Shown here: positions 1 to 19,209 of the stretch, in pieces
How positions within the stretch are numbered: position 1 is the stretch's first letter
How the letters are laid out: each line of letters opens with the position of its first letter
IMG/VR virus record: IMGVR_UViG_3300047457_000670
Coordinates: 1-22,920 of that record
Length of the DNA: 22,920 nt
Reading direction: 5' to 3' (one strand)
From: a virus
Program-made: the position numbers and the translations under genes
The notes under the pieces: model-generated
Database searches by the model: none
What the model was told of the DNA's origin: nothing
The model's input: the letters and a program-made list of their open reading frames with translations, nothing else

Positions 1-3000
1 TTCCCCAATAAGCCCCGCCCCCATTTGCGCCTGCACAATGCTGCCGCGATGCCCCGCAAGTGACCTGCTATTTTCTAATGCTTTTTGAGTAGCAAGTTCT
101 TTATCTTTAGCACTTGCTAATGCTTCATAAAGGGTCTTTTGCTGTTTAAGCAATTCAACTTGTTTGGTAGCTTCGCTAGTTTTCTGCGTTTCATAGAATG
201 CTATAGCCCTATCTAAGTCAACAGCCTTCGCTAGATAGTCATTATAGGTCTTTGTCGGTTTGCCCAATAGCGCATCAATAGCTGCCCCGACCGTAGCCGC
301 AGTACTTTTAGCTTGTTTTTCAAACTCTTGTGTTAGCGCAGCATACGTTCGTTGGGCTAATGCAACGTCTTTTGCCGTTTTACTCTGAATTTCTGCCCGT
401 TCACTGTCTAATTTAAGCAGTTCAGAACTTAAAACAAGTTCCTCTTTCTGCTCTTTAGTCATCGTGGATGATTTAACGGCAGAAGCCAGCACTTTGTTAA
501 CGTAGGCTTCAGCAACTCCACCTAGCGTCTTTAATCTAGCATTTATCTCTTCTTCTGTGACTTCTGCTGCTGTCTTATTTATAGAAGTCAACCATGCCCT
601 GACAGAAGGTGGCCCCTCTTTATAAGCAAGCAATGCTAGTTTAATTCTGCCAAAACTCTCTATTTGCTTGTTTAGGTAAACTTGCCCAGCTTTTTCCGTT
701 TCGCGCAGTGTCTCTACTTGAACATCGCTTAGTTCATTCTTCGCTTGCGTAGCAATTTCATGAATTATTTTGTAGGCATTATTGAAGCGTTCCTCTAGTG
801 CTTTTCTATTATTGTCGTTTACACCCATACCTTCAAGATAGGCGGCGCGTACAGTGTGCATCGGCCCAATAGCAGTGCTATCAGCATTAACTAAATTGCC
901 TCGCTGGGCCTTAGTTAATGACCTATAGTCAGCGGTCTTTAAGCTACTTTCTGCTAATTTAATAGCATTAGGTAATTCATCACTAAGTAATGTTATATCC
1001 TTTTTAATAGTGGAGCCAACTTCAATGAAAGTCTGATGCAACTGATTTGCATACTCTATTTCCTCTTCTTTAGACTTTCTACTAGCTTCTGCTATTTGCT
1101 GTTGCAATTCAAGCGTCTTCTGCAAGGCTTCTTGCGGTGATATTTCACCGATGGCAGGCGATGCCTTGGTCTTTAGAGCCTCAATATCAGCTTCCCTAGC
1201 AGCTATAAATTCTTTTAACTGCTCCCGATGAACTTGTTGATACTTTTCAAACTGTTTACGAAGCCCTTTTTCAAATGATGATACATCCTTCTCACTCATC
1301 TTGAATGCTTCAAATAGCGCAGTATTCTCCCCGGGTGCAGTTGGCTTGTAGTCTGCGACAGCCTTATTAACCCTAGTTAGCTCTGCCTCTACGACGCTCT
1401 TTATTTTCTCAAAATAAGTATGGTATACAACCCTCGGGTCAGCATTCTCCGGTATAGCTAAACTTTCCCTTGTTATAGTTTCCCCTAGTACAACTATTTG
1501 TCCTTTTTGCTCATTTAATTTCTTTATAAACTCATCAACCCTACCTTTAGCTGCTGCATTTTCATTAGACAGCATGGGTTCAGCCGATTTAGTATAGTCT
1601 TGAAGACTTTTTTGTGCTTGCGTGAATGCTTCAGTTACATCTTTTTGCCTTTTAAGTAAATCAATGCGCTTTAGTGCCGCTTCTTCCTCCGGTATTTTCT
1701 GCAATTCACTTAACTTATGCAATAATACATCAGTTACAACAGCTCCCTTATCTAATTGTACGTTTAAGTAACCAAGGCTAGCACCAGCAGTTACCATAGC
1801 CAATCCAGCAGGATTAAGCACTTTAGGTAGAACGGAAATAAGCGTTTGAACTGCCGCAATACCAAGTAGCCCTTCTAGGGCACCACGAACTGCCCCAATG
1901 CTTTCACTGAATTTATAGGTATCGGCAGAAGCCTCCGTGAGGGCGTCTACATACGAAGTGACCCCTTTAAGTAGCGTCTTTAGAGTTTGTTCAAATGTTC
2001 TATAAACATTATCTTCAAGTTTAGTTACTGCGGTTTGGTAATCCCCTATAGCAGCATTAAGCCCTTCTCGCGCTGATTCAAATGCACTACCGCCAAAGCG
2101 TTCGGCCATAAAGCGGGAAAACGCATCAAGCTCTTTATGAGCATATACATTTCCCTTCTTCATTTCCTCCGCAAGCTGCATAGTAGTCCTACCGGTTGCA
2201 GCAGCAAAACTAGAGAATGCACCAGGTAGGTAGTTTGAAAGCTGTTTAACTAGCTCTTCACTTTGAATTTTACCTTTGTTAAACATCTGTGCAATGGCTA
2301 GAAATACATGCGCGGTCTTATCCCCACTAGCATGTAATGTAGTCATTACAGTGTTTATATTCTTAAAGATTTCCCACGTTGTCTCGACACTCTCACCCGC
2401 CATAGTTGAGGATGCCGCGAAGTTTCTGAAGTTCTCACGCAGTGTATTCACTGCAATACCTGTCCTTTTTGCTTCCTTGTCTATTTTAAGGAATTGCATG
2501 GCGGATTCAGTTGCACTACCCATAGTAGCTTCTAAGCTAGCAAAGGTAGATTCAAGCTCAATGCCCTCTTTAGGTATTTCTCGTAAAACCTCTTGTATTT
2601 TATTAGATATAGTATAAATGCTGCCCATAATAGCGTACACCTTAGTGTAATGCGCTATGCTCTGAGCAAGGTTCATATTATAAGCATTTACCTTTTCAGG
2701 GTTAGGTTCAACCGAGGCGATTGCACGCTGTAAATTCGTTAGTTGCGCCTTATAGTTACCTATAATGGCATTCCTTGCTTGCGTAGCTTCCTCTAATGTT
2801 GTTATAGTTTTATTTTTAATTTTATCATCAATAGCGGCTAAGGCGGCAGCTAGACTTTTATAAATCTCTTTCTCACGTTCAGCAAACATGAGCAATTTAG
2901 TTTCCTTAGACTCTAACCCTGTGCGGTATACAGATAGCTCAATTTTATTGGCCATTTGTATAGAGGCCACAGCTTCTTTATTAGCCTCTTTTTGCTTACG

Positions 3001-4392
3001 AAGCAACGCTGCTATTGCTGCTTCCTCATCCTTATAGCGTTTAATAGGCGCATAAGCCTCAATAGCTCTTGCGCTTCGTTCCTCCATAAGGGCATTTAGC
3101 TTTCTTTGTACCGTACTTTCCCTAGCAATCTTATTCTCTAAGTATTGCTGATTTACTTCATCGCGTTTAGCCTCATACTCTCTAGTAATAGCTAGTAGGT
3201 CTTGCTGATATTTAGTCTGCAATGCCTTAAGGCTATCATTGCCCCCTAGCATAACCGCCTGTTCGTGTGCTAGCGATAGCTCTACTGCTTTTTCATTATA
3301 ACGCAGATATTGCGTAATCCATTCTTTTTTCTTATCATAAATTTCCTTTTCAGTTTTAATTGCGTCAAGCCTAGCTTGAGTTTCACTTTGTATGGCCTTT
3401 TCAGCCTTCTCTGCACTTAACGTAACGCGATTCATCTCATTAGTTAATGCGGTTGTGTCGGCTGTTGGGCCTTCTTTTTGCGCGTTAGCAATGAGTGTTT
3501 TTATCGCAATATCAGTATTTTTACGGATTGTTAGAATGTCATGAGCGCGTTTTAGCTCTATCCCCCGTATAGTGTCTTCCCCATGTTTGGCAATAGCTAT
3601 TTCAACGTCTATTTGCCCCCTATAGTCATTTATGTATTCCTTAAATAAATTACTCGTACTTTGCAGTGCTTGCTTGAATTTATCTTGTTCTGCCAGTGTT
3701 GCTTGCGCCTGCGCCTGTGCTAAACGCAATTTATCCATTGAATCGGCCACAAGGCTAGCTCTCATAGCATTTGCAAATGATACTAGCTTTTCCGGGTCTT
3801 CCGATTTATAAATTATTTCTTCTAACTCTTTAAGGTCAAGTGCCAACGAACGCATAATAGCTTTACGTTGGTTGGCATAACTGCGTATAATCCCTATACG
3901 GGTCGTTTCTCCATTTAATATAACCCTTGCGCTTTCAGATTCAAGCAATTCTTCCTGGTTAAGTAGGGCATTGCTTGTTTTCTTAAACTCACTTACAGTG
4001 GCTTTACCCCGCTCCGCTAGTTGGGCCGTAATATGTTGCGTCGTTTGCTCTTCCCCTGTGCGTAATTTACTCTCAAGGTCTCGATACTCGGACATATTAA
4101 GTATCTGATCCTTTGAAAGTAGCATTTTAGCTATTCCCATATCCTGCGAGTGCAAGGCATACTTAACTTCGCCTATAGCCCTTGCTAGCGACCGTAAGTT
4201 ATTCGCTTCTAATTTAAGGTCGTGGGAGAAGAAAGATTTACCACCTTCACCCTTCGATAATGTACTATAGAAGTCTTTTACATTTACTTTAAGGTCTTTG
4301 AGAAGTACAAGCAGTTCGCCGAGTTCTTCCGCAGAAGTGCCTGTCTCAGCAATAACTGAAAGTTTATAAGTGCTTGTTGTTTCAGTCGCCAT
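1..4392 (-). CDS. Tape measure protein (gpH-like), C-terminus beyond window
   Basis: The tape measure sets tail length, scaffolds tube polymerisation and is ejected with the DNA. I read one open frame from ATG 4392 to base 1, 1464 codons, with no stop found in the stretches checked. The start MATETTSTYKLSV has a good SD (AGAGG, 4402-4398, 5 nt spacing) and overlaps the end of the G-T frame by 11 nt (ATGGCGACTGA). Residues about 1-600 are charged, Lys/Glu/Ala-rich and probably helical coiled coil. Residues about 611-747 match the conserved tape-measure domain, with ATMGSATESAMQF near 620 and GKIQSEELVKQL followed by LPGAF near 705-720. Residues about 826-874 form a Gly/Ala/Leu-rich hydrophobic stretch, after which charged helix resumes. 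By the usual rule of about 0.15 nm per residue the tail would be at least about 220 nm (inference). Confidence 0.93.
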   Translation of the reverse strand, partial: MATETTSTYKLSVIAETGTSAEELGELLVLLKDLKVNVKDFYSTLSKGEGGKSFFSHDLKLEANNLRSLARAIGEVKYALHSQDMGIAKMLLSKDQILNMSEYRDLESKLRTGEEQTTQHITAQLAERGKATVSEFKKTSNALLNQEELLESESARVILNGETTRIGIIRSYANQRKAIMRSLALDLKELEEIIYKSEDPEKLVSFANAMRASLVADSMDKLRLAQAQAQATLAEQDKFKQALQSTSNLFKEYINDYRGQIDVEIAIAKHGEDTIRGIELKRAHDILTIRKNTDIAIKTLIANAQKEGPTADTTALTNEMNRVTLSAEKAEKAIQSETQARLDAIKTEKEIYDKKKEWITQYLRYNEKAVELSLAHEQAVMLGGNDSLKALQTKYQQDLLAITREYEAKRDEVNQQYLENKIARESTVQRKLNALMEERSARAIEAYAPIKRYKDEEAAIAALLRKQKEANKEAVASIQMANKIELSVYRTGLESKETKLLMFAEREKEIYKSLAAALAAIDDKIKNKTITTLEEATQARNAIIGNYKAQLTNLQRAIASVEPNPEKVNAYNMNLAQSIAHYTKVYAIMGSIYTISNKIQEVLREIPKEGIELESTFASLEATMGSATESAMQFLKIDKEAKRTGIAVNTLRENFRNFAASSTMAGESVETTWEIFKNINTVMTTLHASGDKTAHVFLAIAQMFNKGKIQSEELVKQLSNYLPGAFSSFAAATGRTTMQLAEEMKKGNVYAHKELDAFSRFMAERFGGSAFESAREGLNAAIGDYQTAVTKLEDNVYRTFEQTLKTLLKGVTSYVDALTEASADTYKFSESIGAVRGALEGLLGIAAVQTLISVLPKVLNPAGLAMVTAGASLGYLNVQLDKGAVVTDVLLHKLSELQKIPEEEAALKRIDLLKRQKDVTEAFTQAQKSLQDYTKSAEPMLSNENAAAKGRVDEFIKKLNEQKGQIVVLGETITRESLAIPENADPRVVYHTYFEKIKSVVEAELTRVNKAVADYKPTAPGENTALFEAFKMSEKDVSSFEKGLRKQFEKYQQVHREQLKEFIAAREADIEALKTKASPAIGEISPQEALQKTLELQQQIAEASRKSKEEEIEYANQLHQTFIEVGSTIKKDITLLSDELPNAIKLAESSLKTADYRSLTKAQRGNLVNADSTAIGPMHTVRAAYLEGMGVNDNNRKALEERFNNAYKIIHEIATQAKNELSDVQVETLRETEKAGQVYLNKQIESFGRIKLALLAYKEGPPSVRAWLTSINKTAAEVTEEEINARLKTLGGVAEAYVNKVLASAVKSSTMTKEQKEELVLSSELLKLDSERAEIQSKTAKDVALAQRTYAALTQEFEKQAKSTAATVGAAIDALLGKPTKTYNDYLAKAVDLDRAIAFYETQKTSEATKQVELLKQQKTLYEALASAKDKELATQKALENSRSLAGHRGSIVQAQMGAGLIGE

Positions 4393-5169
4393 AAGAGCCT
4401 CTAATAATGCTTACAAAACCATCATGTATGTATTGAACGCTAACTAAAGTTTCCCTCAATGGAATATCGAAGTCTTTTATTAGCGCAAGCAACATCGTGG
4501 TGTCTATAGTATAGTCACTTTTGGTAAAGGGGTACAGAATCTTGTAAAGTTCAAAGACTTGTGAATTGCATTCCCATAGGTCGATAACTATCGTTTCGTC
4601 TTTTACTTCAGTAGTTACGATAGTATTGTCGCTATCAATATCTAGTAGAGCCTCTAACGCTTCCTCATCGCTTTTATTACTCAATAGTTCCTTTCGCGGG
4701 GGAGAGGAGGCTCTACCTAAAGCCTCCCCCGCTTGTCTCAGTTTCCCAGACTATCTTCTTTATAAGAAGATGCGTTAGTGATTGCGATGTTAAATGTGGC
4801 GAAAATTGCTGTTTTCCACGGCAAACTTGCGAAGTATTTATCAATCATAACTTCCAAGCATTCTTTGGGGGTTTCCCAAACACCTGGCAAAGCCTCTGCC
4901 GTTCTAGTGTCAACGATGAGTTCTTCAACTTTACCCGTCTTTGTGTCTTCAATTTCTACTTTTGCGTTACAAATGTAGGCAATCTCAGCCTTAACAACGG
5001 CATCAAAATCAGTCAGGTTTTGCCAAGAGACAATTTTTTCTTCCATCGTTGGGATGTCATAGCGATGAAACCCGACGCTTATGCTATCTTGCGTATTCGC
5101 AGCATCTTTCGCGGTCACTTTAAGTTCAATGACGGGTGTTTGCAATTTAACGTACAACTTCTTTGACAT
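4382..5169 (-). CDS. Tail assembly chaperone fusion G-T (-1 frameshift product)
   Basis: Slippage at GGGAAAC (4747-4741) moves ribosomes into the -1 frame, which is open from 4741 to the stop at 4384-4382. It adds 119 residues to G (262 in total; lambda gpGT is about 279). The extension begins LRQAGEALGRASSPP and continues through SNKSDEEALEALL to SIIRGSYGD. In lambda the T part binds the tape measure or tube subunits while G coats the tape measure. A 100-codon reading beginning at TTG 4684 is only the distal part of this frame. It has no need for its own start, and the upstream frame stays open back to the slip site. The T end overlaps the tape measure start by 11 nt, as expected for coupled translation. 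Confidence 0.88.
4696..4747 (-). promoter_or_regulatory. Programmed -1 frameshift signal: GGGAAAC plus stem-loop
   Basis: Read on the minus strand, the zero frame is CTG GGA AAC TGA, so the heptamer is G GGA AAC in X XXY YYZ phasing at 4747-4741. After an 8-nt spacer (TGAGACAA) a stem starts at 4732. GCGGG + GGAGGCT pairs with AGCCTCC + CCCGC: 12 base pairs, an 8-nt loop (4720-4713) and a 5-nt bulge (4705-4701), GC-rich. Lambda uses GGGAAAG at the same place. The -1 frame has no stop until 4382. Confidence 0.9.
4738..5169 (-). CDS. Tail assembly chaperone G
   Basis: This 143-residue protein is the short product of a lambda-type G/G-T pair, chaperones that coat the tape measure and recruit tube subunits. 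Its position directly before the tape measure gene, its length (lambda gpG is about 140) and the frameshift signal at its end support the call. It starts MSKKLYVKLQTP with SD AGGTAGAG just upstream, and ends SYKEDSLGN before TGA. The slippery heptamer GGGAAAC occupies the last codons, so a fraction of ribosomes continues into the -1 frame. It follows the membrane-protein gene by 8 nt in one minus-strand operon. The sequence itself is divergent, so the call rests mainly on context and the frameshift. Confidence 0.85.
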   Translation of the reverse strand: MSKKLYVKLQTPVIELKVTAKDAANTQDSISVGFHRYDIPTMEEKIVSWQNLTDFDAVVKAEIAYICNAKVEIEDTKTGKVEELIVDTRTAEALPGVWETPKECLEVMIDKYFASLPWKTAIFATFNIAITNASSYKEDSLGN

Positions 5170-8385: not shown

Positions 8386-9860
8386 TTGATGACGTTTACA
8401 CCATTCTGCATCGTGGGGCGACGGCTTTTGACGGTGCATCTACTAAATATAAAGAGGATATGAATAATGTCTTCTTTGGTTCGCCTGACCAAATTATAAG
8501 TAGAGAATTGTTGCTGCTTCAGCAACGTAGCTTACATGCAATTCGCAATAATGGTTATGCTAAAATTGCTAGAGATAAATATGTGACCAATGTTGGGTCA
8601 TTGAAGGTACTTTGGCATGATAATAAAAATAGACGCCACAATCGTATGCAAGATTTATGGGATGCCTTTGCAGATAACCCTTCTTTAGACGGCTATGGAA
8701 CGCTTTGTAATTTACAAAGCCTTTGGCACTCAAGCCTTTTTTCTACTGGAAATGCTTTCACTAGAAAGTTAATCCGCAAGGGGCGTAAAAATAGCATTGT
8801 CCCTCTTGTATTAGAGCCTATACAGAGTGAATTGCACGATTTATTTTATTTTGGCGATGGAAGGAAAACTGTTAGGCATGGCATCGGTTTTACCGATAAT
8901 GTGCCAGACACCTATTACTTTAGGTTACAAGCCTACCAAGAGTTTCCAATTATAAATAATACGCAAAACATAACCGCTATACCATCTAATGAAGTTTTGC
9001 ATTTATTTAATAGAGAGTTGCCAGGGCAATGGTTGGGCGTGCCCGTCCTTAGTAGCATTCTAATCCCTCTATATGAGTTAGACGAACTCATGGATGCTAC
9101 TGTGGCGAGGCAAAAAGCATCGCAAGCAATAAGTTGGATTATCACTAATAGCAATCCTACTAATATGATGCCAGTAGGTGTACCTATTATTGATAAAGCA
9201 GCAAATAGTAAAGAAAAGGTTGTATTTAAGGCAACCGGGTCAAATGTGCAATATCTCAATAAAGGGGAGAATATAACCTTCCATCAGGGGGCAGACATTG
9301 GGCCTAACTTTGTTAAATTAGCTGAACTTGAGCTTCGTAGAATATCTAACGCATGTCACGTGCCCTACCACCAGCTAACGGGAGACACAAATGGCATTGA
9401 CTTTAGTACACTTCGGGCACTTTTGATTGAATTACGCTCAAGAATAGAGTATACTCATCACTTTCTAACCATACCGCTTGGGCTAGCCCCGTTAACTGCA
9501 TATTTTAAGGAGCTAGCGCAGCTATACTACCCAAATGTGAAAAATGCCACCCCGTCATACCAGCTTCCGCGCTTTTACGGAGTCGATGACTTGAAGGATG
9601 CCCAAGCCGATGTACTTGAGATACAGAATGGGCTAGCTACATTAGATAGTAAATTGCAGGAAAGGCATACTACGTTTGAGGCGATTGCTGCTGATAGGGA
9701 GCGGTTAAAGGAACTAGGATTGGATAATTTATTATTCCCAAATGGGGCAGGTAAGCCAGAGGGCAATGGGGCAGGTAGGTCAGGAAGTAATGGCTCAGGT
9801 GTAACAACACCCCCTATAAAAGGGGTTACAAGTGCTACAAGTGGTGAAAACGATGTATGA
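8373..9860 (+). CDS. Portal protein (lambda gpB family)
   Basis: The portal is the dodecameric ring at one capsid vertex through which DNA enters and leaves. The 495 residues and position after gpW and before the S49 protease are as in lambda. Family features include AIRNNGYAKIARDKYVTNVG (an N-x-x-A...NVG pattern near residues 56-75), the stretch LHLFNRELPGQWLGVPVLSS, and the helical HVPYHQLTGDTNGIDFSTL, then RALLIELRSRIE. The C-terminal tail (about 450-495) is Gly/Asn/Ser-rich and probably disordered. ATG 8373 follows AAGG by a normal distance. The end overlaps the protease start by 8 nt (ATGTATGA), which suggests coupled translation. Confidence 0.95.
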   Translation: MSNVIDDVYTILHRGATAFDGASTKYKEDMNNVFFGSPDQIISRELLLLQQRSLHAIRNNGYAKIARDKYVTNVGSLKVLWHDNKNRRHNRMQDLWDAFADNPSLDGYGTLCNLQSLWHSSLFSTGNAFTRKLIRKGRKNSIVPLVLEPIQSELHDLFYFGDGRKTVRHGIGFTDNVPDTYYFRLQAYQEFPIINNTQNITAIPSNEVLHLFNRELPGQWLGVPVLSSILIPLYELDELMDATVARQKASQAISWIITNSNPTNMMPVGVPIIDKAANSKEKVVFKATGSNVQYLNKGENITFHQGADIGPNFVKLAELELRRISNACHVPYHQLTGDTNGIDFSTLRALLIELRSRIEYTHHFLTIPLGLAPLTAYFKELAQLYYPNVKNATPSYQLPRFYGVDDLKDAQADVLEIQNGLATLDSKLQERHTTFEAIAADRERLKELGLDNLLFPNGAGKPEGNGAGRSGSNGSGVTTPPIKGVTSATSGENDV

Positions 9861-11040
9861 AAGAATACTAAATAGGCTAGCTGCCCCTCTGTTGCTGGAT
9901 GAAACAAAATTTAAGGATATTCATGATAATTTAATTTTACCGTTGACATTAGGGGAAACCCCTTCTGGAATTGCTAAAGTAACGCATGAAGCAACGAGCG
10001 AGGCAGGTAAAATTAAAGTTATAAATGTAAAGGGAACACTTACTAGCGGTAATGCTGCCGGTGATAGCGGTACTAGAAGCTATACAACTATCGCTAGAGA
10101 TATAAAAACAGCTATTGCCGATGGCTATCGCAGTATTGCATTTAACTTTTCAACTTATGGTGGTGAATCTGATGGGGCTATGGGACTGGCTAAATTCATA
10201 AACTCACTACCGGCACTTTATGGCGCAAAAACTATTGCAATTATAGACGGCCCTTGCTGTTCCGCAGGCTACCTGTTGGCTAGTAACACGCAAGAAATTC
10301 TATGTACTGCCGGGGCGGAACTTGGGTCAATCGGCGTAATTGCAAGCATCCCCAATAGAGTTAGCGGGGATGAAAAGACGGGAACAACCTGGACAATACT
10401 GCGAAGCCATAGTGAAAAAGCATTGGGCAATCCGCACGAACCTATTTCTGATGCGGCATTAGCCTCTATTCAGAAAAAGGTTGACAACTTAGCTAAAGTT
10501 ATGATAGATACTATTGTAACTGGGCGTCCTAAATTGTCTAAAGACATTATTGCTACCTTAAATGGCAAGACTGTCCTGGGAGACGAGGCTATCTCACTTG
10601 GTCTAGCCGATGGCTTGATTGAAAGTGTAGATATAACATTAGAAATGTTAAATAGACGGTGTAAAAATATGAGTTCTTCTTTTGATAATTCATCTGCACA
10701 AGTTGACGAGACCATGCGTCTTCGTGCGGAACTTGAAGCGGTGAAAGCTGCTTCATCTGTAGCTATTAGTAAAGCAGTGGCCGATGAACGCGCACGCTGC
10801 CTGGCCATTTTGGATGCGGCTAAGACGTTTGGCCTGTCATCAGACGTTGCCATTAAGCAAATTAACTTATCTTCAAGCATTGAGCAAAGTGTAGCTATGT
10901 TTGAAGCGGTTAAGGAAGCTATACAAATGGCGAATCCAACTCCTGTCGCTGCTACGGCTACCCCGCAAGTAGCAGAAAGTGCCTCTAGCCCATTCGCTGA
11001 ATGGATTAAAGGTAATGAATTTTTGGCATCAATCAAGTGA
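9853..11040 (+). CDS. S49-family prohead protease with C-terminal scaffold region
   Basis: A ClpP/SppA-fold serine peptidase that matures the prohead, with a scaffold tail, as lambda gpC. I chose ATG 9853 (395 residues) because GGTGA (9843-9847) is 5 nt upstream; GTG 9832 in frame lacks this. The catalytic serine is S137 in GPCCSAGYLLAS. The general-base lysine is probably K189 in SEKALGNPHEPIS; the 52-residue gap equals that of the Ser-Lys pair of Bacillus SppA as I recall it. GSIGVI (about 159-164) is the conserved strand after the active site. From residue 273 the chain is charged, helical and Ala-rich, ending EWIKGNEFLASIK, which is scaffold-like. It overlaps the portal end by 8 nt. Confidence 0.95.
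   Translation: MYERILNRLAAPLLLDETKFKDIHDNLILPLTLGETPSGIAKVTHEATSEAGKIKVINVKGTLTSGNAAGDSGTRSYTTIARDIKTAIADGYRSIAFNFSTYGGESDGAMGLAKFINSLPALYGAKTIAIIDGPCCSAGYLLASNTQEILCTAGAELGSIGVIASIPNRVSGDEKTGTTWTILRSHSEKALGNPHEPISDAALASIQKKVDNLAKVMIDTIVTGRPKLSKDIIATLNGKTVLGDEAISLGLADGLIESVDITLEMLNRRCKNMSSSFDNSSAQVDETMRLRAELEAVKAASSVAISKAVADERARCLAILDAAKTFGLSSDVAIKQINLSSSIEQSVAMFEAVKEAIQMANPTPVAATATPQVAESASSPFAEWIKGNEFLASIK
10669..11040 (+). CDS. Probable internally started scaffold protein (Nu3-like)
   Basis: In lambda, Nu3 is translated from a start inside gene C and forms the capsid scaffold. The same arrangement is seen here: an in-frame ATG at 10669 (codon 273 of the protease gene) is preceded by GGTG (10658-10661) with 7 nt spacing. 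It would give 123 residues, close to the size of Nu3. The product begins MSSSFDNSSAQVDETMRLR and has a long helical stretch, a Pro/Ala/Thr linker and a short conserved-looking C-terminus. The position falls exactly at the end of the peptidase fold. Translation from this start is inferred, not shown. Confidence 0.6.
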   Translation: MSSSFDNSSAQVDETMRLRAELEAVKAASSVAISKAVADERARCLAILDAAKTFGLSSDVAIKQINLSSSIEQSVAMFEAVKEAIQMANPTPVAATATPQVAESASSPFAEWIKGNEFLASIK

Positions 11041-11048
11041 GGTGACTT

Positions 11049-11849
11049 ATGGCTAATTGGAATGGTGGGTGGCGGTCATACCCGAACCGCCCGACTATCG
11101 CATCTTTGCGTACTTTCTTTAGGGCAGAAGCGCATAGCACTAAACCGCTTACTATTAAAGCCGGTCAAGTGCTTCGCAAACATAGCTTTGTTGAAACTGA
11201 CGCGGCAGGCTTGGGTGTAGCTCATACCGGTATGGCTGAAAAAGCCCTGCTTACCTTTACCGCAGGCGTAGGTGCAGCAAAGACTGTTATCATCGCCGGT
11301 CTTACCTTCACCACTACTGGCATCGTAAGTGCCGCCGATGTAGTTAAGGCATTTAGCGGCCTTACTGATGGCATGACGGCGGCAGAAGCTAATGCGGCTA
11401 ACGCTGTGGCCGGGGGAAGTTTCACCGCAGGCGCACTGGCGGGGTTTCATACCTATAAAAGCAGCACTGCTAATAGCGTTCTGTTCGTTTCAACGTCACC
11501 TAACACTAATGTAACTGACCTTGCTGATGCAGGTAGCTCAACGGTTACTAGCGTCACCGTCGTGGCATACCCTAATCCGCAAAAGAAGATTGCCGGTGTT
11601 CTGTTGATGGACGTTGACGCTAGTGCGGGTGACGTTGACACGACTGTGTATAAGGAAGCTAGCTTTTATGCAAGTGCCCTTGTGTGGGAAGCTGACGCAA
11701 CCGATACTATTGAACTTGCTGACGGCACTACTGTAGCTTGTACTGATTACAATGTCGGTGCGTTCACTGATGCTGCAAAACGTAAGTTTGTAGAGAACAC
11801 TGAATTTGAAGAACTTGGTATTTTGAAAGCAGGGGAAGATTATGTCTAA
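11049..11849 (+). CDS. Head decoration protein (gpD-like) with inserted domain
   Basis: gpD trimers clamp the expanded capsid lattice. The flanking parts fit gpD: residues 1-63 (with LTIKAGQVLRKHSFVETDA) and 178-266 (KIAGVLLMDVDASAGDVDTT, then YKEASFYASALVWE and a C-terminal EFEELGI). Lambda gpD has VGILAVAADQ, YKSGTFR and VLWPEA in the same order. Between them lies an insert of about 110 residues (64-174) beginning with VIIAGLTFTTTGIVSAADVV. It recurs in the tail tube protein and is not part of the gpD fold. The protein is therefore 266 residues rather than about 110. SD AGGTGA lies before ATG 11049. Its end overlaps the capsid gene by 8 nt, as D and E are adjacent in lambda. Confidence 0.88.
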   Translation: MANWNGGWRSYPNRPTIASLRTFFRAEAHSTKPLTIKAGQVLRKHSFVETDAAGLGVAHTGMAEKALLTFTAGVGAAKTVIIAGLTFTTTGIVSAADVVKAFSGLTDGMTAAEANAANAVAGGSFTAGALAGFHTYKSSTANSVLFVSTSPNTNVTDLADAGSSTVTSVTVVAYPNPQKKIAGVLLMDVDASAGDVDTTVYKEASFYASALVWEADATDTIELADGTTVACTDYNVGAFTDAAKRKFVENTEFEELGILKAGEDYV

Positions 11850-13065
11850 TATGCAATTTGCTGATCCGTATTCAGCACAAAAGATTCTGTCCGGGGTAAT
11901 TCGTGCCCTGAATGATGGACAGCCGAAGCGGCCTAATTGGTTGCAGTCATTCTACCCAACGAATGCTGCTCTCATCAATGATAGAACTGTTAACTTCGAC
12001 CAGCAGCTATCAGTTCGCAATGTCATGGGTACGTTTGCATTGCCGAATGCTGACGTTAACCCTGTTTCATTGCCGACCTATGGGCATAAAGAGCATAGCT
12101 TCAGCTACGCTAAGGAAAGTGTAACTGACGGTGATGATGATTTTGAAACGCTCAATATGCGAGAAATGGGGCAGCAGTTCGGCCAGATTAACATTGCCGC
12201 TAATAGGGCCATGCGGTTGAATGCTAAATTTGCCGCAGTTGAACAGCGTTTTGAAAACTTGTTTGAACTGGTTGCTTCGCAAATTCTGCTTTATGGCGGT
12301 TATGGTGCAAAAAGCGAGTATTACCCGCTTTATGTATATGACTTTGAACGGTCTGTATGTAATAAATACAGTGACATTAAGACGGATAAGGATACTCTTG
12401 TCTCTAGTGTAAACTTGACTACTTCACCTGTCACTGCTCCTTGGGATGCTTCACGAGTTATCCTGCCCGTTATTGCTTCTGCCGGTGCTGCTTATACCGC
12501 CGGTGAGAAAGCCTGGACGAAAGCAAACGTCGATGCTGGCACCGCTACGCCCTATAAAGACTTGTTGCAAATGATATTGACTTGTAATGAGTGGTCGCGT
12601 GCGGATATGGTTCACATGAGCCAAGATGCTTATGAAGTTTTCAATTATGATATTGAAAAGAACTATAAGGAAGCGGCTGTAACCACCACGCTTGCTATGC
12701 TGCAAATTGAACGGGATATTTTGCCGCGTATGCAAAGTGTCGATGACTTGCACTTTCAGCGCAACATTAGCCTTGGTGGTGGCATTAACCTACCCATTTA
12801 CACTTATAAAGCTATTTATCATAACCGTAATACTGGTGAGCGCACTCGCTACATTGGTAATGGTTGGGTTAGTGTTATTCCTAACTCAGGTTATGTTAAA
12901 GCCTACGGTAGAATTATGCACCGTAAAGCCAACTATTCCGCTATGCCGCGTTGGATAAATAGCTGGATGGATGAGAAAACGGGTGTGCAGCAGTGGGAAT
13001 GGCATACTAACTTTGTTATGGCAAATTCTGCTATAAACAGCCTTGTTACGTGGAAAGTTGCATAA
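11842..13065 (+). CDS. Major capsid protein (gpE family)
   Basis: This is the HK97-fold shell subunit. The 407 residues are longer than lambda gpE (341) but the features fit. There is an N-terminal arm and a section QSFYPTNAALINDRTVNFDQ like the lambda WIEK/F region. A Gly-poor helical spine follows (NIAANRAMRLNAKFAAVEQR). Later comes SDIKTDKDTL, and the C-terminal part carries GNGWVSVIPNSGYVKAYGRI, a strand set that is typical of gpE-type proteins. SD GGGGAAG precedes ATG 11842 within the decoration gene. Codons here favour CTG and C- or G-ending choices more than in the small neighbours, which fits high expression. Confidence 0.94.
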   Translation: MSNMQFADPYSAQKILSGVIRALNDGQPKRPNWLQSFYPTNAALINDRTVNFDQQLSVRNVMGTFALPNADVNPVSLPTYGHKEHSFSYAKESVTDGDDDFETLNMREMGQQFGQINIAANRAMRLNAKFAAVEQRFENLFELVASQILLYGGYGAKSEYYPLYVYDFERSVCNKYSDIKTDKDTLVSSVNLTTSPVTAPWDASRVILPVIASAGAAYTAGEKAWTKANVDAGTATPYKDLLQMILTCNEWSRADMVHMSQDAYEVFNYDIEKNYKEAAVTTTLAMLQIERDILPRMQSVDDLHFQRNISLGGGINLPIYTYKAIYHNRNTGERTRYIGNGWVSVIPNSGYVKAYGRIMHRKANYSAMPRWINSWMDEKTGVQQWEWHTNFVMANSAINSLVTWKVA

Positions 13066-13077
13066 ACTAACACGGTC

Positions 13078-13710
13078 ATGAAAAACACAGGCGATACCAA
13101 GGTTCTTGATAACTTTATCGGCTTAGTTGACCTTCAAACTATGACGAAAAAGAATGAAAAACGCACAGTTACCTTACTTAAGGATATAGATGCAATAATT
13201 CATTCTGCTGTCAATCGCCGGTATCGCCTGCCCGCCAATATGACTACCGCATCCGTTATTAGGGGGAGACTTCCCTCTAATACCGGTAGAACCGGTAGGT
13301 ATATTTATAAGAATGGCATAACGTATGGGTATAAATCCATTCCTCTTAGCCGCTTTCTTACGTCAGAATCCATTGGAAATATCGAACCAATCGCGGAAAA
13401 GACTAAGCCAGGACTTGTCCATCGAGTGCAGATACGGCGCAAAGGAGGTGAAAAAATATCGTATGGTAAATTGGGCTTTGGTGGCTTCATACCGCGAGAA
13501 GGCAAAATAGACGGTAAAAAGGTTAGAAATAAAAACTTTCCTAAATGGGGCATTACTATGTGGGAAAGAAATAGTCGCAGCGCATATGAGATACATCCGC
13601 TTCGTGGGCCGTCTATATCGCAAATGGTAGCTACTACTATGAAGGAAGATGCCTCCCTTAAGGGGAGGATAGAGAAACTGATGCTAGATAGGCTTATTTC
13701 ATATAAATAG
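13078..13710 (+). CDS. Tail completion / minor tail protein Z-like
   Basis: gpZ acts when tail and head join. The 210-residue protein is very basic (KKNEKRTVTLLKDID near the start). In the middle it has a strand-rich section VHRVQIRRKGGEKISYGKLG, and near the C-terminus IHPLRGPSISQMV, which resembles the GPS-containing motif of gpZ and related HK97-gp10-type proteins. It sits directly after the capsid gene. The SD before ATG 13078 is poor; an alternative ATG at 13141 has none either, so I kept the longer form. In lambda Z follows FII, whereas here the Z-like gene comes first. An HK97-gp10-type tail-component role is the main alternative. Confidence 0.72.
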   Translation: MKNTGDTKVLDNFIGLVDLQTMTKKNEKRTVTLLKDIDAIIHSAVNRRYRLPANMTTASVIRGRLPSNTGRTGRYIYKNGITYGYKSIPLSRFLTSESIGNIEPIAEKTKPGLVHRVQIRRKGGEKISYGKLGFGGFIPREGKIDGKKVRNKNFPKWGITMWERNSRSAYEIHPLRGPSISQMVATTMKEDASLKGRIEKLMLDRLISYK

Positions 13711-13727
13711 CTTTAATTAGGTTAATT

Positions 13728-14036
13728 ATGGTAGAAGACATAGCATTAGTATTGTCAGTGTTTGGCGACCTTTTCGAGTGTGACGCTGGCCGCTTTCGTG
13801 GTATACTTGGGACGGAATTGGTCACCCTAGCAGGCGGGGCGTATGAACTTGCCTCGCAGTCAATAAGTATACAAGTTGCTACGCAAACAGTATATGACTA
13901 TGATATAGGGGCAGGCACTACGCTTACATATAGTAAAGTGGGCATGACCTATAATTTAACTGTGAACAGCTTTATAGATAGCTTAAATGGTTGGACTGAG
14001 CTTTTCTGCGATGCGAGTAGCGTAGAAGATGTATAA
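13728..14036 (+). CDS. Head-tail connector, FII-like
   Basis: The 102 residues have the plan of lambda gpFII (117 residues), which sits at the end of the filled head and receives the tail. A short helix with DLFECDAGRFRGILGTELVT leads to a beta barrel whose strands include SISIQVATQTVYDYDIGAGT and a C-terminal DSLNGWTELFC. Lambda FII has GYMGTSATIT, RGDTLTIG and a final HLWLG in equivalent places. Similarity is weak, so the call depends on size, order and strand pattern. SD AGG precedes ATG 13728. It overlaps the next gene by 8 nt (ATGTATAA). Confidence 0.6.
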   Translation: MVEDIALVLSVFGDLFECDAGRFRGILGTELVTLAGGAYELASQSISIQVATQTVYDYDIGAGTTLTYSKVGMTYNLTVNSFIDSLNGWTELFCDASSVEDV

Positions 14037-14439
14037 TGAAAGCACTCTTATCAATAGGTTGCAGACTGAAACTGGTTACACTGTAACGTATAGCCCTGGC
14101 AGGCAGGTTGATTTACTTTCAACCAATGAAACACTACCGAGGTTATATGTAGGCCATTTAGGTATTCAGCTTTTTGATAAGAATACTTTATTCAGTAACG
14201 GTTATGTGGAGTATGAGAATCCTGAAATACTCCTAACGGAAGTTAACTATGTCTGCTTGCGTAGCAACTGGGCAGAAGTTAGAACGAAGATTAGAGCAGC
14301 CTATACAGGTTACTCGCCGTTTCCCGATGACGCAGATTATTCCAGTATCACTTTTGTTGAAGCTATGATAAAAGGTGAAACTAATACAAAAGTATGGTGG
14401 AATGAAGTGGTCGGGCTTGTTATGCCTAGAATTTCTTAG
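14029..14439 (+). CDS. Tail terminator protein, gpU-like
   Basis: gpU caps the tail tube at its head end and stops polymerisation. The protein has 136 residues (lambda gpU 131) and lies directly before the tail tube gene, as U lies before V in lambda. Visible features are an N-terminal helix (ESTLINRLQTETGYTVTY), mixed strands (LPRLYVGHLGIQLFDK), and a C-terminal KVWWNEVVGLVMPRI that resembles the W...V closing strand of tail terminators. There is no motif that is decisive alone. Its start overlaps the preceding gene by 8 nt. Confidence 0.6.
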   Translation: MYNESTLINRLQTETGYTVTYSPGRQVDLLSTNETLPRLYVGHLGIQLFDKNTLFSNGYVEYENPEILLTEVNYVCLRSNWAEVRTKIRAAYTGYSPFPDDADYSSITFVEAMIKGETNTKVWWNEVVGLVMPRIS

Positions 14440-14456
14440 TTAATGAGGTTTATGCT

Positions 14457-16820
14457 ATGAGTGTTGTACGGTTTCACGAAAAAGCAGTGCAGATATTTGC
14501 CTGTAAACAAAATGCAGAATTTAATAGTGCTGTAAAAAGTACCGCAGAAACCACGGGTACCGTGCGGTTTGGTAGCTCAAAAGTGCTTACTGTTCCCGCG
14601 CTTGCTAATACTAATGTGCTTACTATTGGCACAGTTACATTTACTGCCACTGGTTCTGTAAGCGCAGCCGACCTTAAGCGTCGTTTGTTGGACGATACTT
14701 TATCAGTTGCAAACCTTACTGTAAGTGCAGGGACGTTACCGAGTCTTGAGGATATTGGCGGAACTCAGGTATTAGTATTTAGTCCTGGTTCTGCTCCGTT
14801 TCCGACAATTACAGGCTCCGGAGTAACGCTGACGCTTTCATCGGACGCATCAACTAAATACGTTGTTGGTGGGCCTAACTGCCGTTTTAAGTACCAAGAT
14901 GCTGAAGGGGATGGACTGGGCCAAGCTACTGTTGGTATGTATATTAGGCGTAGTGGCGCACTAGATACTAATATCGGTAGAATCGAATCCGTATTGTCAA
15001 ATACAGTTTTACTTTTGGAAAACCTTGACGATACTGCTAGGGCCACCGATAGTAAAAACTATTTTTATGCTTTCGACTTCGGCCCTAAAAATGCCGTAGC
15101 AGTGCTAAACTTGACGTATTCACTTGAAACTACGAGTGAAGCCTTCCTGTATAGCGGGGATGAAAATGAGATTGACGAAAAAACCGTCATTACTGACCGC
15201 TATGGTAAAATTGATTTTGAAACCTTTGTTCCCGCAGTAGATACGGCTTATGCAAGCAAGACGCTAGAGGGCGACTACATACCTATGGGCGACTTCTTTA
15301 ATGCCACGGGCCTTAAAGCAGATACAAGTGTGGCTGGAAGCGTTACTTACACTACAGAAAATTCAGTAGATTCTTATTTAACTATTGAAATTCGCCGTTC
15401 ATCGTCTTCAAGTACTTTTAACACGCTCGAAAAGGCATTTACCTATACTGACGTTAGAGGAACTGTTGATTTTGACGCAGTTATCGGTACTAAGGCTAAG
15501 TTGAAATGGGCCTTTATGGGTAACTTTAAGCGAGTGACTGATAAACAGCGCATAACGCCTGACCCGGAGACTAGAGCGTTGCAGAAGTCTCGTATTGCTG
15601 CAAACATTTCAGCTGACTCGTTGACCACTTGTCAGATGGACTTGGAAAGTTTTGCTACCACAGTGCAATTTTTGAGCGATTTACCCGCAAGCAAAAAGGT
15701 AGCACTAGGCGGCCTTATATTTAATTCCATAGAAGCAGTAACTCCGGAGAAATTAAGTAACTATTTTACTAATGGAACTTTGGGGCTTCAGAATGGCGTA
15801 AAAGGCAGCACGTTGAATGACATTTATGGCATAGGAAGTTCGTATAAAATCGTTCTTCCGCCTGTACTTAAACCTGGCCAATCAGTTACAGTAGGCAATT
15901 ATGTAATAACTGTATCTGGAAGTGTTAATCGTACAGCGGAAAATATAGCAAAATTGCTGGCTTTCCTTGGGTCACAAGAAGGGGAAACAGCAACAAGAAT
16001 AGCTGCTGCTAAAAATAGATACGGAAATTTTACGGTAACTAACCGCACGGCATATCCAACAGGTTCTACTATACGTAGTACACTAGCTGAATACGAGATT
16101 TTTCCTGTAGATGGGGAACCCGGTAGTGTATCTTTTTACGGGCCAGGCATAAATGATACTACAGCCGTTCCGGCTGATTTCGTTTTGTCGGCCAAAGCCT
16201 CAACTGACCCTGCTGCCGATGCTGCACCAGCTATAACGTCCTCAATTATTCCCGGAAACTATTTTTCTGGCACACTTAATGGATATGCAACAACCCCAGG
16301 TAAAGCATCTAATTCAGTTATGTTTTACCCAGTATTGCCAAATAGGGGCACCGAGGCTTTATCGCTAATCGGTACAAGTGCCACAAGTGATGTAGCAACT
16401 TTAGATGGGGCGAAAATTACTGGCCTTTCTATTGCTTCAATAGAAAAAGCCAGTGCCCTTACTATGGTCGACGGACGCAAGAATGTCTGCTTTGATAAAC
16501 TTTCATCGCCCAACTTCAGTAGCAAAGAATACGTTAGGATTCAAACGGGTTGTGGTGACGGTTGGTCACGCGGTTCCGTTCCAACTGACGTAAGCCTTAC
16601 TATCACTGAAGAGCAGGCTAACGCATCTTATAACCCTGACAATCACTTGGAAGAAGACCATGCGCTTTACGTTAAATGGACTAGCGGAAGTGGCTACGTG
16701 CTGGTTAAATTTAACAAATTGCAACTTGTTAAAGTAACTAATAGCACTGTTGGTAACTATGCCGGACAAGACCTTTCTTTCAGAAAGATTGGCATATCTT
16801 CAATTACGCTGAAGGGCTAA
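14457..16820 (+). CDS. Major tail tube protein (gpV-like) with several inserted domains
   Basis: The tube subunit forms stacked hexameric rings. Tube-type sequence is split into pieces: about residues 1-45, 140-400 (with EAFLYSGDENEIDEKTV and GDYIPMGDFFNATGL) and 665-787 (ending DLSFRKIGISSITLKG). The inserts carry a recurring domain: copy 1 at about 51-139 (VLTIGTVTFTATGSVSAADL), copy 2 at about 414-468 (VALGGLIFNSIEAVTPEKL), copy 3 at about 476-600 (VTVGNYVITVSGSV, then TAENIAKLLAFL). At 787 residues it is about three times lambda gpV (246, which carries one Ig-like domain). SD GAGGTT (14445-14450) is 6 nt before ATG 14457. A sheath protein is unlikely, as the neighbours are all siphovirus-like. 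Confidence 0.8.
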   Translation: MSVVRFHEKAVQIFACKQNAEFNSAVKSTAETTGTVRFGSSKVLTVPALANTNVLTIGTVTFTATGSVSAADLKRRLLDDTLSVANLTVSAGTLPSLEDIGGTQVLVFSPGSAPFPTITGSGVTLTLSSDASTKYVVGGPNCRFKYQDAEGDGLGQATVGMYIRRSGALDTNIGRIESVLSNTVLLLENLDDTARATDSKNYFYAFDFGPKNAVAVLNLTYSLETTSEAFLYSGDENEIDEKTVITDRYGKIDFETFVPAVDTAYASKTLEGDYIPMGDFFNATGLKADTSVAGSVTYTTENSVDSYLTIEIRRSSSSSTFNTLEKAFTYTDVRGTVDFDAVIGTKAKLKWAFMGNFKRVTDKQRITPDPETRALQKSRIAANISADSLTTCQMDLESFATTVQFLSDLPASKKVALGGLIFNSIEAVTPEKLSNYFTNGTLGLQNGVKGSTLNDIYGIGSSYKIVLPPVLKPGQSVTVGNYVITVSGSVNRTAENIAKLLAFLGSQEGETATRIAAAKNRYGNFTVTNRTAYPTGSTIRSTLAEYEIFPVDGEPGSVSFYGPGINDTTAVPADFVLSAKASTDPAADAAPAITSSIIPGNYFSGTLNGYATTPGKASNSVMFYPVLPNRGTEALSLIGTSATSDVATLDGAKITGLSIASIEKASALTMVDGRKNVCFDKLSSPNFSSKEYVRIQTGCGDGWSRGSVPTDVSLTITEEQANASYNPDNHLEEDHALYVKWTSGSGYVLVKFNKLQLVKVTNSTVGNYAGQDLSFRKIGISSITLKG

Positions 16821-16821
16821 T

Positions 16822-17262
16822 ATGGCTCTCATTACTTCTACAGAATGCCTTAAAATTTTCGGGCATCCTAGTTCTGAGAAGTACATGAAAATGTGGGATG
16901 TGCCTACTCCGTTGGAGATAGGCGCAATCCCAAAGCGTATCTATTGTTCTACTTTGCTTCCTCTTGCATTAGAGGAAGCATTTAGAAACTTAATAGACGC
17001 TGACATTGTAAATGAACTACGAACGTGGGATGGCTGCTATAACCTTCGCCTTAAAAAGGGTGGAAGCACCTATAGTATGCACGCATGGGGGCTTGCGATA
17101 GATGTCAATGCAGCATGGAATGGTTTTGGTAAGCCGCCAAAACTATCGCAAGCATTTGTAGATTGCTTCACTAGCGAGGGTTTTGAGTGGGGAGGTAAAT
17201 GGAAAACTCCAGATGGTATGCACTTTGAACTCAGTAAAGAGTTCATCCTTAAACATAGCTAA
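16822..17262 (+). CDS. M15-family peptidoglycan peptidase (endolysin)
   Basis: A zinc D-Ala-D-Ala/L-Ala-D-Glu-type peptidase that cuts cell-wall cross-links for lysis. The 146 residues carry the full zinc site: SMHAWGLAIDVN (H87 and D94 of the H-x-G-x-A-x-D pattern, here H-A-W-G-L-A-I-D) and DGMHFE (H134, with acidic D131 as likely general base). There is no signal peptide or wall-binding domain, so a holin would be needed to release it. AAGGG (16812-16816) precedes ATG 16822, which follows the tube gene stop by 1 nt. A virion-carried tail lysin is an alternative because the gene lies between tube and fibre genes. A 10-bp inverted repeat lies inside the gene. Confidence 0.92.
   Translation: MALITSTECLKIFGHPSSEKYMKMWDVPTPLEIGAIPKRIYCSTLLPLALEEAFRNLIDADIVNELRTWDGCYNLRLKKGGSTYSMHAWGLAIDVNAAWNGFGKPPKLSQAFVDCFTSEGFEWGGKWKTPDGMHFELSKEFILKHS
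16955..16980 (+). repeat. 10-bp perfect inverted repeat inside the lysin gene
   Basis: TGCTTCCTCT (16955-16964), a 6-nt loop TGCATT, and AGAGGAAGCA (16971-16980) form a perfect 10-bp stem. There is no T-run after it, so it is not a standard terminator. It encodes part of LLPLALEEAF. A role in pausing or in limiting lysin translation is possible but unproven. Confidence 0.5.
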
Positions 17263-18849: not shown

Positions 18850-19209
18850 ATGGCTAATTTAACAATACAAAGTGAAACTACACGAATAAACTTCATTGAG
18901 TATGCTGGCGACACAATTAAAATGTTGTTTGCCTATAAGGATAATTTAGGAGCTTTTATAGATTTAGAAAATTACGAAGTATCAATGGAACTTCGTAAAA
19001 ACCAAGAAGATGCTAACGCAATACTTACTTATAGCTCGGCAAATGGGACTGTCGATACTACAGGGGCCGACGCTAACATTGCATTAGAGATAAGTGCAAC
19101 ACAATCAGCTTCACTCGGGCCAGGCGAATACTTTTACTTTATAAAGTTAGCCATTGATACCTTTGTAAATACCCTTATAGTTGGTAAATTGGTATTGAGG
19201 ATTAGGTAA
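18850..19209 (+). CDS. Fibre/baseplate-associated beta protein
   Basis: The 119 residues show a single beta-rich domain: GDTIKMLFAYKDNLGAFIDL, then YEVSMELRKNQEDANAILTY, and a closing SLGPGEYFYFIKLAID with VGKLVLRIR. This order of strands, with G-D/K-D-N-G-x-x-I-D-L and a G-E-Y-x-Y-x-I-K-L end, is common in small phage proteins encoded just before tail fibres, and resembles the N-terminal domain of some siphovirus baseplate upper proteins. I infer a structural adaptor role. SD AGGTGG precedes ATG 18850. The stop overlaps the next start by one base (TAATG). Confidence 0.7.
   Translation: MANLTIQSETTRINFIEYAGDTIKMLFAYKDNLGAFIDLENYEVSMELRKNQEDANAILTYSSANGTVDTTGADANIALEISATQSASLGPGEYFYFIKLAIDTFVNTLIVGKLVLRIR

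Follow-up and report, generated by a model that had tools for sequence, protein, structure and literature searches.

Can a single accessory domain be carried on both the head and the tail of one bacteriophage? The question is raised by IMG/VR record IMGVR_UViG_3300047457_000670, a virus of bacteria, of which positions 1 to 22,920 (the window) were analysed here; its head decoration and major tail tube genes lie within 11,049 to 16,820. A preliminary description, made from the sequence alone, had proposed that both proteins carry one recurring domain outside the immunoglobulin (Ig) class, and the segments that it quoted were located in the two named genes. We present here a computational analysis in which that observation is confirmed with corrected boundaries, and its interpretation as a surface-display or adhesion system is partly supported. 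With about even confidence, we read the module as a mobile insert of the lateral-domain fold on head and tail, most likely acting as a low-affinity, multivalent adhesion surface. Papers are cited by PMC number, from excerpts.

Head decoration protein

The decoration protein has a gpD-fold core interrupted by an insert of about 115 amino acids (aa) at residues 62 to 177; the segment had been described as 64 to 174, and its limits are here adjusted. The model (mean predicted local distance difference test [pLDDT] score, 84.3) aligned over the core with 6xgq_a (Z, 11.9; 101 residues aligned; root mean square deviation [rmsd], 2.5), 8xqb_J0 (Z, 11.0), 1td0_D (Z, 11.0), and 1c5e_A (Z, 10.1), which places it in the gpD-type fold. 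These gpD and SHP structures have no insert. In plain Foldseek searches of the model, 6xgq_a ranked first at an E value of only 0.02; nothing in the PDB reached 0.001 (best, 0.021), and two viral models did. The Pfam HDPD match (E value, 2.6e-5; best stretch, residues 178 to 220) scored 24.7 bits, under the curated cutoff of 29.1, and the insert interrupts the domain; the protein is therefore termed gpD-fold rather than a Pfam member. The insert-free relatives L034 and L035 match phrog_49.

Decoration proteins of 29 loci found in scans of viral contigs were aligned with that of the window. The insert is present in 21, and six (L032 and L034 to L038) have just 4 to 8 residues opposite window residues 62 to 177; L032/L034 and L037/L038 look like near-duplicates. 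L039 and L040, remote short proteins that are also insert-free, were kept out of the six. A core tree of 30 rows was built with the insert removed and L012, L014, L015, L023, L032, L038, L039, and L040 left out. Insert state changes three times on the best tree, a single clade of the four insert-free rows is rejected (approximately unbiased test, p-AU 0.006), and the row nearest to the window is the insert-free L034. Well-supported branches alone require only one change, and insert state was equally clustered in 67 to 69 of 500 shuffles. The segment is a true insertion with patchy gain and loss, not an integral part of the core.

The insert is modelled with two helices between strands, at a pLDDT of 82 to 96 per 10-residue block except for 67 (151 to 160) and 75 (171 to 180). 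By VIA-align, its best matches are 8kee_A, the A-1(L) sheath-tube (Z, 9.2; 89 residues aligned; rmsd, 2.5), and the nozzle-type chain 8i4m_A (Z, 8.2). Lower matches to sheath, nozzle, gp11, FliC, and FliD chains span Z 3 to 8, a range below 8 in which VIA-align cautions that common arrangements may be reflected; they include the sheath of Milano (8foy; 7.8), Mu (9khy_a; 7.7), T4 gp11 (1el6_A; 6.8), FliC (4nx9; 5.8), and FliD (6kty; 5.1). The structural comparison that had been proposed thus gave an answer: the insert is predicted to adopt the lateral-domain fold seen in sheaths, nozzles, FliD, and flagellin. No Ig-type family was among the Pfam matches of 22 module rows at E values up to 5, and none of the fold matches listed was Ig-like, although such an absence is no proof and the term Ig-like is used variably.

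Tail tube protein

The tube model is of fair quality (mean pLDDT, 73.3). Its core aligned with the P74-26 tail tube protein (8ed0_A; Z, 22.4; 302 of 348 residues; rmsd, 3.1) and the T5 tube protein (9iny_A; Z, 20.5), with the best four rows at Z 20 to 22, and tube-core matches occupy all rows among the matches listed. Either half of the chain (residues ~1 to 378 or ~370 to 787) is matched by single-domain tube and Hcp proteins, indicating two tube domains in one chain. The core is therefore modelled as a T5/P74-26-type double tube protein, so the comparison with the lambda tube made previously is not apt.

Tube segments were scored with the module profile against 1,000 shuffles each. A C-terminal copy, C1, is split: its joined halves scored 36.8 bits (best shuffle, 10.3), the first half alone 15.1 bits (8.0; model positions 5 to 53 at residues 401 to 448), and the second half alone 24.7 bits (10.7; model positions 55 to 115 at residues 588 to 652). 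The split comes after the first helix, a point at which members of the family alignment differ in length. A second copy, C2, nested within the split, scored 17.6 bits (7.8; model positions 6 to 81) and is moderately supported. Tubes of two close relatives, L014 and L015, have a like arrangement, with joined scores of 39.5 and 33.6 bits and nested scores of 15.3 and 14.2 bits. Judged by these scores, the tube appears to hold one strong split copy with a weaker copy nested inside it. The previously listed segment 414 to 468 is thus module sequence, but only the first half of a copy whose second half (~579 to 660) lay mostly outside the list, and 476 to 600 is mainly the second copy, in the loop of the first. 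The listed segment 51 to 139 falls in the weakest copy region, the N-terminal one, which at 13.5 bits (best shuffle, 13.2) is marginally supported; by inspection it lies within a small domain that is uninterrupted in L016.

Three other tubes differ in outline. The L016 tube protein (9544 to 11235) has a C-terminal extension that the window tube is without. In those of L021 (12584 to 14059) and L022 (11658 to 12887), sequence of a different appearance that includes an AHGLT motif lies close to where the window tube has its C-terminal insert. These stretches were unmatched in the profile search, the one test made of their kinship to the module; domains of several types may therefore be accommodated at the C-terminal tube site.

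Kinship of the head and tail copies

A first profile comprised 34 inserts, 32 of them from phage decoration proteins and 2 from bacteria, with no tube row; it was searched against 1,582 open reading frames (ORFs) of 60 aa or more. This search, of the kind that had been suggested, found tubes and bacterial members. The window tube protein matched at a full-sequence E value of 1.2e-9, bearing out the proposal of one module common to head decoration and tail tube. Tubes of other phages matched at 9.1e-20 (L026), 4e-18 (L018), and 2.2e-6 (L025), as did those of L014, L029, L015, L028, and L031; tubes of L030 and L027 stayed at 2.3 and 5.1. Apart from the decoration, tube, and bacterial members, no ORF did better than 0.16.

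With a second profile, to which tube rows and further bacterial rows had been added, 11 of 23 tube proteins matched, every one from a phage with a decoration insert (L027 and L030 through this profile only). Both proteins carry the module in 11 phages, the decoration protein only in 6, the tube only in 0, and neither in 6 (Fisher p, 0.014), a table whose entries are not independent because near-duplicates and related phages are included; L032 is a fragment. Three tube insertion sites are in use across phages: near residue 41, within 93 to 212, and within 387 to 499 or 401 to 667.

It is highly improbable, and already disfavoured, that there is no common module and the segments share merely a beta-rich, Thr/Ala-rich composition. 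Such an account would fit the profile-profile comparisons (hhalign), which agree weakly (tube C region: E value 5.9e-4, probability 29%; N-terminal copy: 1.9e-3, 14%), and the N-terminal copy, scarcely above its shuffles. It would also fit the failure of the letter pattern given in the preliminary description, a poor test, which in literal form matches none of the four segments. When loosened, the pattern matches at decoration residue 81 and tube residue 415 (0.09 expected in shuffles) and in none of 59 other ORFs, and it misses the other two segments. The E values of the tube-free hidden Markov model (HMM) in the window and other tubes contradict the composition account, and on inspection the predicted strand and helix order of the tube copies resembles that of the decoration insert (at low confidence over much of residues 541 to 660).

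Other searches returned nothing of use. No matches were found by tblastn with the decoration protein against phages (E value, 0.01) or plasmids (0.1), with the tube protein or the L046 insert against phages, or with the L018 tube module against plasmids. When 17 inserts were searched against PDB sequences, the 74 matches obtained were all at 0.44 or worse, the best 60 of the 74 all being Hsp90, and Pfam gave ten single-row matches for the 22 module rows (best E value, 0.015); both sets were judged to be chance. As expected, the profile-profile tool detected no homology between the module and the gpD core.

Flavobacterium phage FL-1

Only a second decoration family reached named phages by tblastn: among 86 records, one was covered to at least 80%, that of Flavobacterium phage FL-1, which was covered fully. 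Its decoration protein (APZ82873.1; 263 aa; phrog_5204) has the module at residues 66 to 172 (3.9e-27). FL-1 thus resembles the window in bearing the module on a head decoration protein, and differs in that the protein belongs to a separate family. No homology was detected between the gpD-type and phrog_5204 cores, with few rows compared, and the same module site in both families is therefore not claimed. The FL-1 sheath and other ORFs have no module in the 39.9 kb examined of 53.1 kb, nor does the FCL-2 decoration protein (151 aa), to which the short decoration proteins of FCV-1 (151 aa) and Cellulophaga phage phiSM (146 aa) align.

FL-1 was enriched on mucin plates (P = 0.001), and FLiP was a nonbinder (PMC6867891). 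In FL-1 its authors detected no apparent Ig-like domain except one very weak hit, and they say that the mechanism of binding "remains speculative" (PMC6867891). Phage adherence to mucus is commonly credited to Ig-like domains. The module is a concrete candidate for the binding by FL-1, and one that could be purified and tested.

Bacterial relatives

Two bacterial loci came from one genome scan and the others from surveys. The survey of one phylum (398 genomes) had 4 carriers at 1e-5, that of one family (200 genomes) had 4 at 1e-6, and that of another family (149 genomes) had 1. The starting genomes are counted within these sets (G001 in the 398- and 200-genome sets, G353 alone in the 149-genome set), and the counts are lower bounds because the 398-genome survey scored part of many genomes' first-look candidates. 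By Pfam, the carriers are three FliD proteins with 1, 3, and 4 copies, FlgK with two tandem copies, FlgE, FliC, three RTX-repeat proteins, and one protein without a family. In one genome the module occurs in both FliD and FlgK, and in another in FliC and FliD, a pairing that parallels decoration plus tube in phages. The preliminary description had pointed to bacterial adhesins and S-layer-type proteins; the large RTX-type proteins fit that suggestion, but the clearest bacterial kin are the flagellar axial proteins FliD, FlgK, FlgE, and FliC.

Two details concern single loci. In contig C6 of G001, the module-bearing FlgK gene occurs twice (L072 and L073) in opposite orientation with equal scores, possibly an assembly or amplification artefact. 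The FliD with four copies (L085, 175 to 2973) has a subthreshold CBM_5_12 match at residues 239 to 258, inside the first copy (19.9 bits; cutoff, 26.2).

A first module tree included two window tube copies and one of L014, and the branch of the nested copy was very long (3.53); a second dropped these three along with L053 and L063. With the window tube copies dropped, the clade tests say nothing on their origin. In a 52-row tree with five tube modules (L018, L025, L026, L028, and L029), the five as one clade are rejected (p-AU 0.0175), so tubes have probably gained the module more than once. The L018 tube module groups with FlgK modules (support, 97/85); its origin as a duplicate of the phage's own decoration module was considered, and that sisterhood is rejected (p-AU 0.001). 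The corresponding sisterhood in L026 is not rejected (p-AU 0.188), nor is a single clade of all decoration modules (p-AU 0.128). The L018 tube copy is therefore nearest to bacterial modules.

If the module is carried because hosts display it, phages might be enriched on flagella by homotypic contact or shared ligands. Its presence in four kinds of flagellar axial protein and the position of the L018 module beside FlgK suit such engagement or resemblance, which we nevertheless hold to be improbable: carriers are rare in the sampled genomes (4/398 and 4/200), and the FL-1 host is a Flavobacterium, from a genus associated with gliding motility and not with flagella. Particles of Peru-2 do appear to touch sheathed flagella via minor capsid proteins, by a contact module of another, Ig-like kind (preprint, PMC13320782).

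Allele exchange and function

Three strains were compared: the window, L014, and L015 (the latter two on the same contigs as L001 and L002). L014 and L015 share 97.1 to 100% identity with the window in 14 of 16 proteins, the two exceptions being the tube and the gene at 18850 to 19209. Tube residues ~401 to 675 are 51 to 55% identical between the window and L014/L015, and core residues 146 to 400 are 94% and 89% identical. Against L014, nucleotide identity per 20 codons is 0.48 to 0.68 inside the block and 0.92 to 1.00 over residues 668 to 787, with sharp edges. Synonymous divergence (dS) from L014 is 1.76 to 1.89 inside the block versus 0.16 (146 to 400) and 0.09 (676 to 787); from L015 it is 1.80 (456 to 675; 401 to 455 not computable) versus 0.32 and 0.29 in the flanking core. 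The N-terminal copy is more divergent than its surroundings and far less so than the block (86% and 73% identity; dS, 0.21 and 0.42). We considered positive selection in the block but reject it, as dS and nonsynonymous divergence (dN) are elevated together, which indicates exchange. L014 and L015 have the same block allele and the window differs; the gene at 18850 to 19209 splits alike (62% aa identity between the window and L014, 61% between the window and L015, and 98% between L014 and L015), but three genomes are too few to call linkage. A scan for additional tube alleles found only the L014 and L015 contigs again. In this tail tube gene, the segment that was exchanged is thus also the one occupied by the inserted module.

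We propose that separate insertions placed a mobile alpha/beta surface module of the flagellin/FliD/sheath lateral-domain fold in two virion proteins: in one loop of the gpD-type decoration protein, and in loops of the T5-type double tail tube protein. In the tube, the variable loop of one copy would have received another. Because head and tail are still built from the cores, the modules probably project outward in large numbers, and they most likely provide low-affinity, multivalent adhesion to extracellular glycans or to the surface of the host.

Several observations count against this proposal. Over tube residues 571 to 660, the region of the second half of C1, the model is weak (block pLDDT, 34 to 80). 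With the second profile, no module is detectable in 12 of the 23 tube proteins, six in phages with a decoration insert and six in phages without. The decoration insert shows no exchange (98% and 97% identity to L014 and L015) and is under purifying selection (dN/dS, 0.08 and 0.12). The authors of the mucin study suggest that a different FL-1 protein, APZ82894, may be the binder, FCL-2 binds mucin although its decoration protein is module-free, and T4, V46, and PRD1 also bind (PMC6867891). Mucin binding in general thus does not require the module, whose link to mucin in FL-1, suggestive but confounded, makes it a candidate only.

The purifying selection also argues against a neutral passenger, spread by recombination through abundant virion proteins whose loops tolerate inserts, as does the recurrence of the module and fold in several extracellular polymers. 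A functionless passenger is quite improbable, even though the insert is patchy and, in L021 and L022, sequence of another appearance lies close to the tube site used by the window's C-terminal insert. Decoration proteins stabilise capsids, and the modules could instead be structural cement, contacting neighbours to stabilise head and tail and binding nothing outside. That general role and the conservation of the decoration insert between strains favour cement, and stability is one hypothesis for sheath additional domains, citing a contact in phage 812 (PMC9230969). We regard it as conceivable but rather unlikely, since relatives manage without the module, the tube block is swapped between near-identical phages, and tubes use three sites. 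Composition (mean Ser plus Thr, 28% over 44 rows; 1 Cys in 4,961 residues; 8% charged residues in the window decoration insert) fits an extracellular surface and leaves adhesion versus cement undecided.

An extension of the adhesion proposal, unlikely as a whole, is that phages and bacteria share one recombining pool of "coat" modules, fitted in parallel on several flagellar or virion proteins so that each polymer presents a single sticky or recognisable surface throughout. As a virion component, the module would be a mucus or glycan adhesin outside the recognised Ig families, explaining mucin binding by FL-1.

Genomic setting

The features are listed in Table 1. Both genes lie in a head-tail cluster with terminase, portal, S49 protease, decoration, capsid E-type, and neck-type proteins. 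The decoration gene is flanked upstream by the S49 protease gene (Pfam, 4.9e-15) and downstream by Phage_cap_E (6e-7), a position between head protease and major capsid genes like that of lambda gpD/SHP-type proteins. A gene for an endolysin-like M15-type peptidase (16822 to 17262) stands immediately 3′ of the tube gene. On the minus strand at 1 to 5169, one long gene, read as a tape measure from its length and place rather than a family match, and two small genes are inverted upstream of the terminase gene. Homologues of all three follow the tube gene on the same strand in L005 (12754 to 16797, plus strand), and two of the three are so arranged in L006.

Table 1. Head and tail features of the window, with window coordinates
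Feature	Coordinates	Strand	Details
Head decoration protein gene	11049..11849	+	266 aa; gpD/SHP-fold core with inserted module
Decoration module insert, residues 62-177	11232..11579	+	Relatives without insert; HMM 119 bits; pLDDT
Major tail tube protein gene	14457..16820	+	787 aa; core modelled as double tube protein
N-terminal tube copy, residues ~41-133 (marginal)	14577..14855	+	13.5 bits; alignment with L016
C1 first half, split tube copy, residues 398-452	15648..15812	+	15.1 bits alone; model positions 5-53
C2 nested tube copy, residues ~460-575	15834..16181	+	17.6 bits; within variable loop of C1
C1 second half, residues 579-660	16191..16436	+	24.7 bits alone; model positions 55-115
Allele-exchange block, tube residues ~401-667	15657..16457	+	Nucleotide identity and dS versus L014
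Small tail-region gene, phrog_1084 (function-unknown family)	18850..19209	+	Alleles split like tube block

Comparison with known systems

Ig-like domains on phage virions include those of Hoc, lambda gpV, and T5 pb6. Like them, the module is accessory and patchy, occurs on head and tail proteins, and is proposed to bind surfaces weakly; unlike them, it has no Ig-family match. The boundary is in part one of naming, as most additional domains of sheaths are termed Ig-like in PMC9230969 and the lateral domain is described as a seven-stranded beta-sandwich with a helix in PMC12846349.

The module sequence family, its head-plus-tube pairing, and the nesting were not found in searches of one open-licence library, and the module is unmentioned in the excerpts of PMC10966104 and PMC10811340. 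As far as these searches reached, what is new is one sequence family on head and tail, its relatives within bacterial FliD, FlgK, FlgE, FliC, and RTX-type proteins, its probably multiple origins in tubes, the exchange of tube residues ~401 to 667, and the FL-1 decoration module.

Recurrence of the fold itself is already known from PMC12846349, which in section 3.8.1 lists it in sheath, nozzle, auxiliary capsid, FliD, and flagellin proteins, and from PMC10457771. The module shares its predicted fold with the lateral domain of type 2 sheaths (PMC12846349), but here one phage bears it on a gpD-type decoration protein as well as on a siphophage-type tube, the copies are detectably related in sequence, and the tube has a further, nested copy. 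The insertion domain (InD) of the Vibrio phage XM1 sheath resembles FliD D3, and the authors of that study suggest gene exchange from the host (PMC10457771); it is likewise a flagellar-cap-like domain inserted into a phage tail protein. In XM1, however, the likeness is structural and confined to the sheath, whereas the present module is found on head and tube and has flagellar relatives at the level of sequence, linking phage virion proteins and flagellar proteins where the cited papers noted structural likeness.

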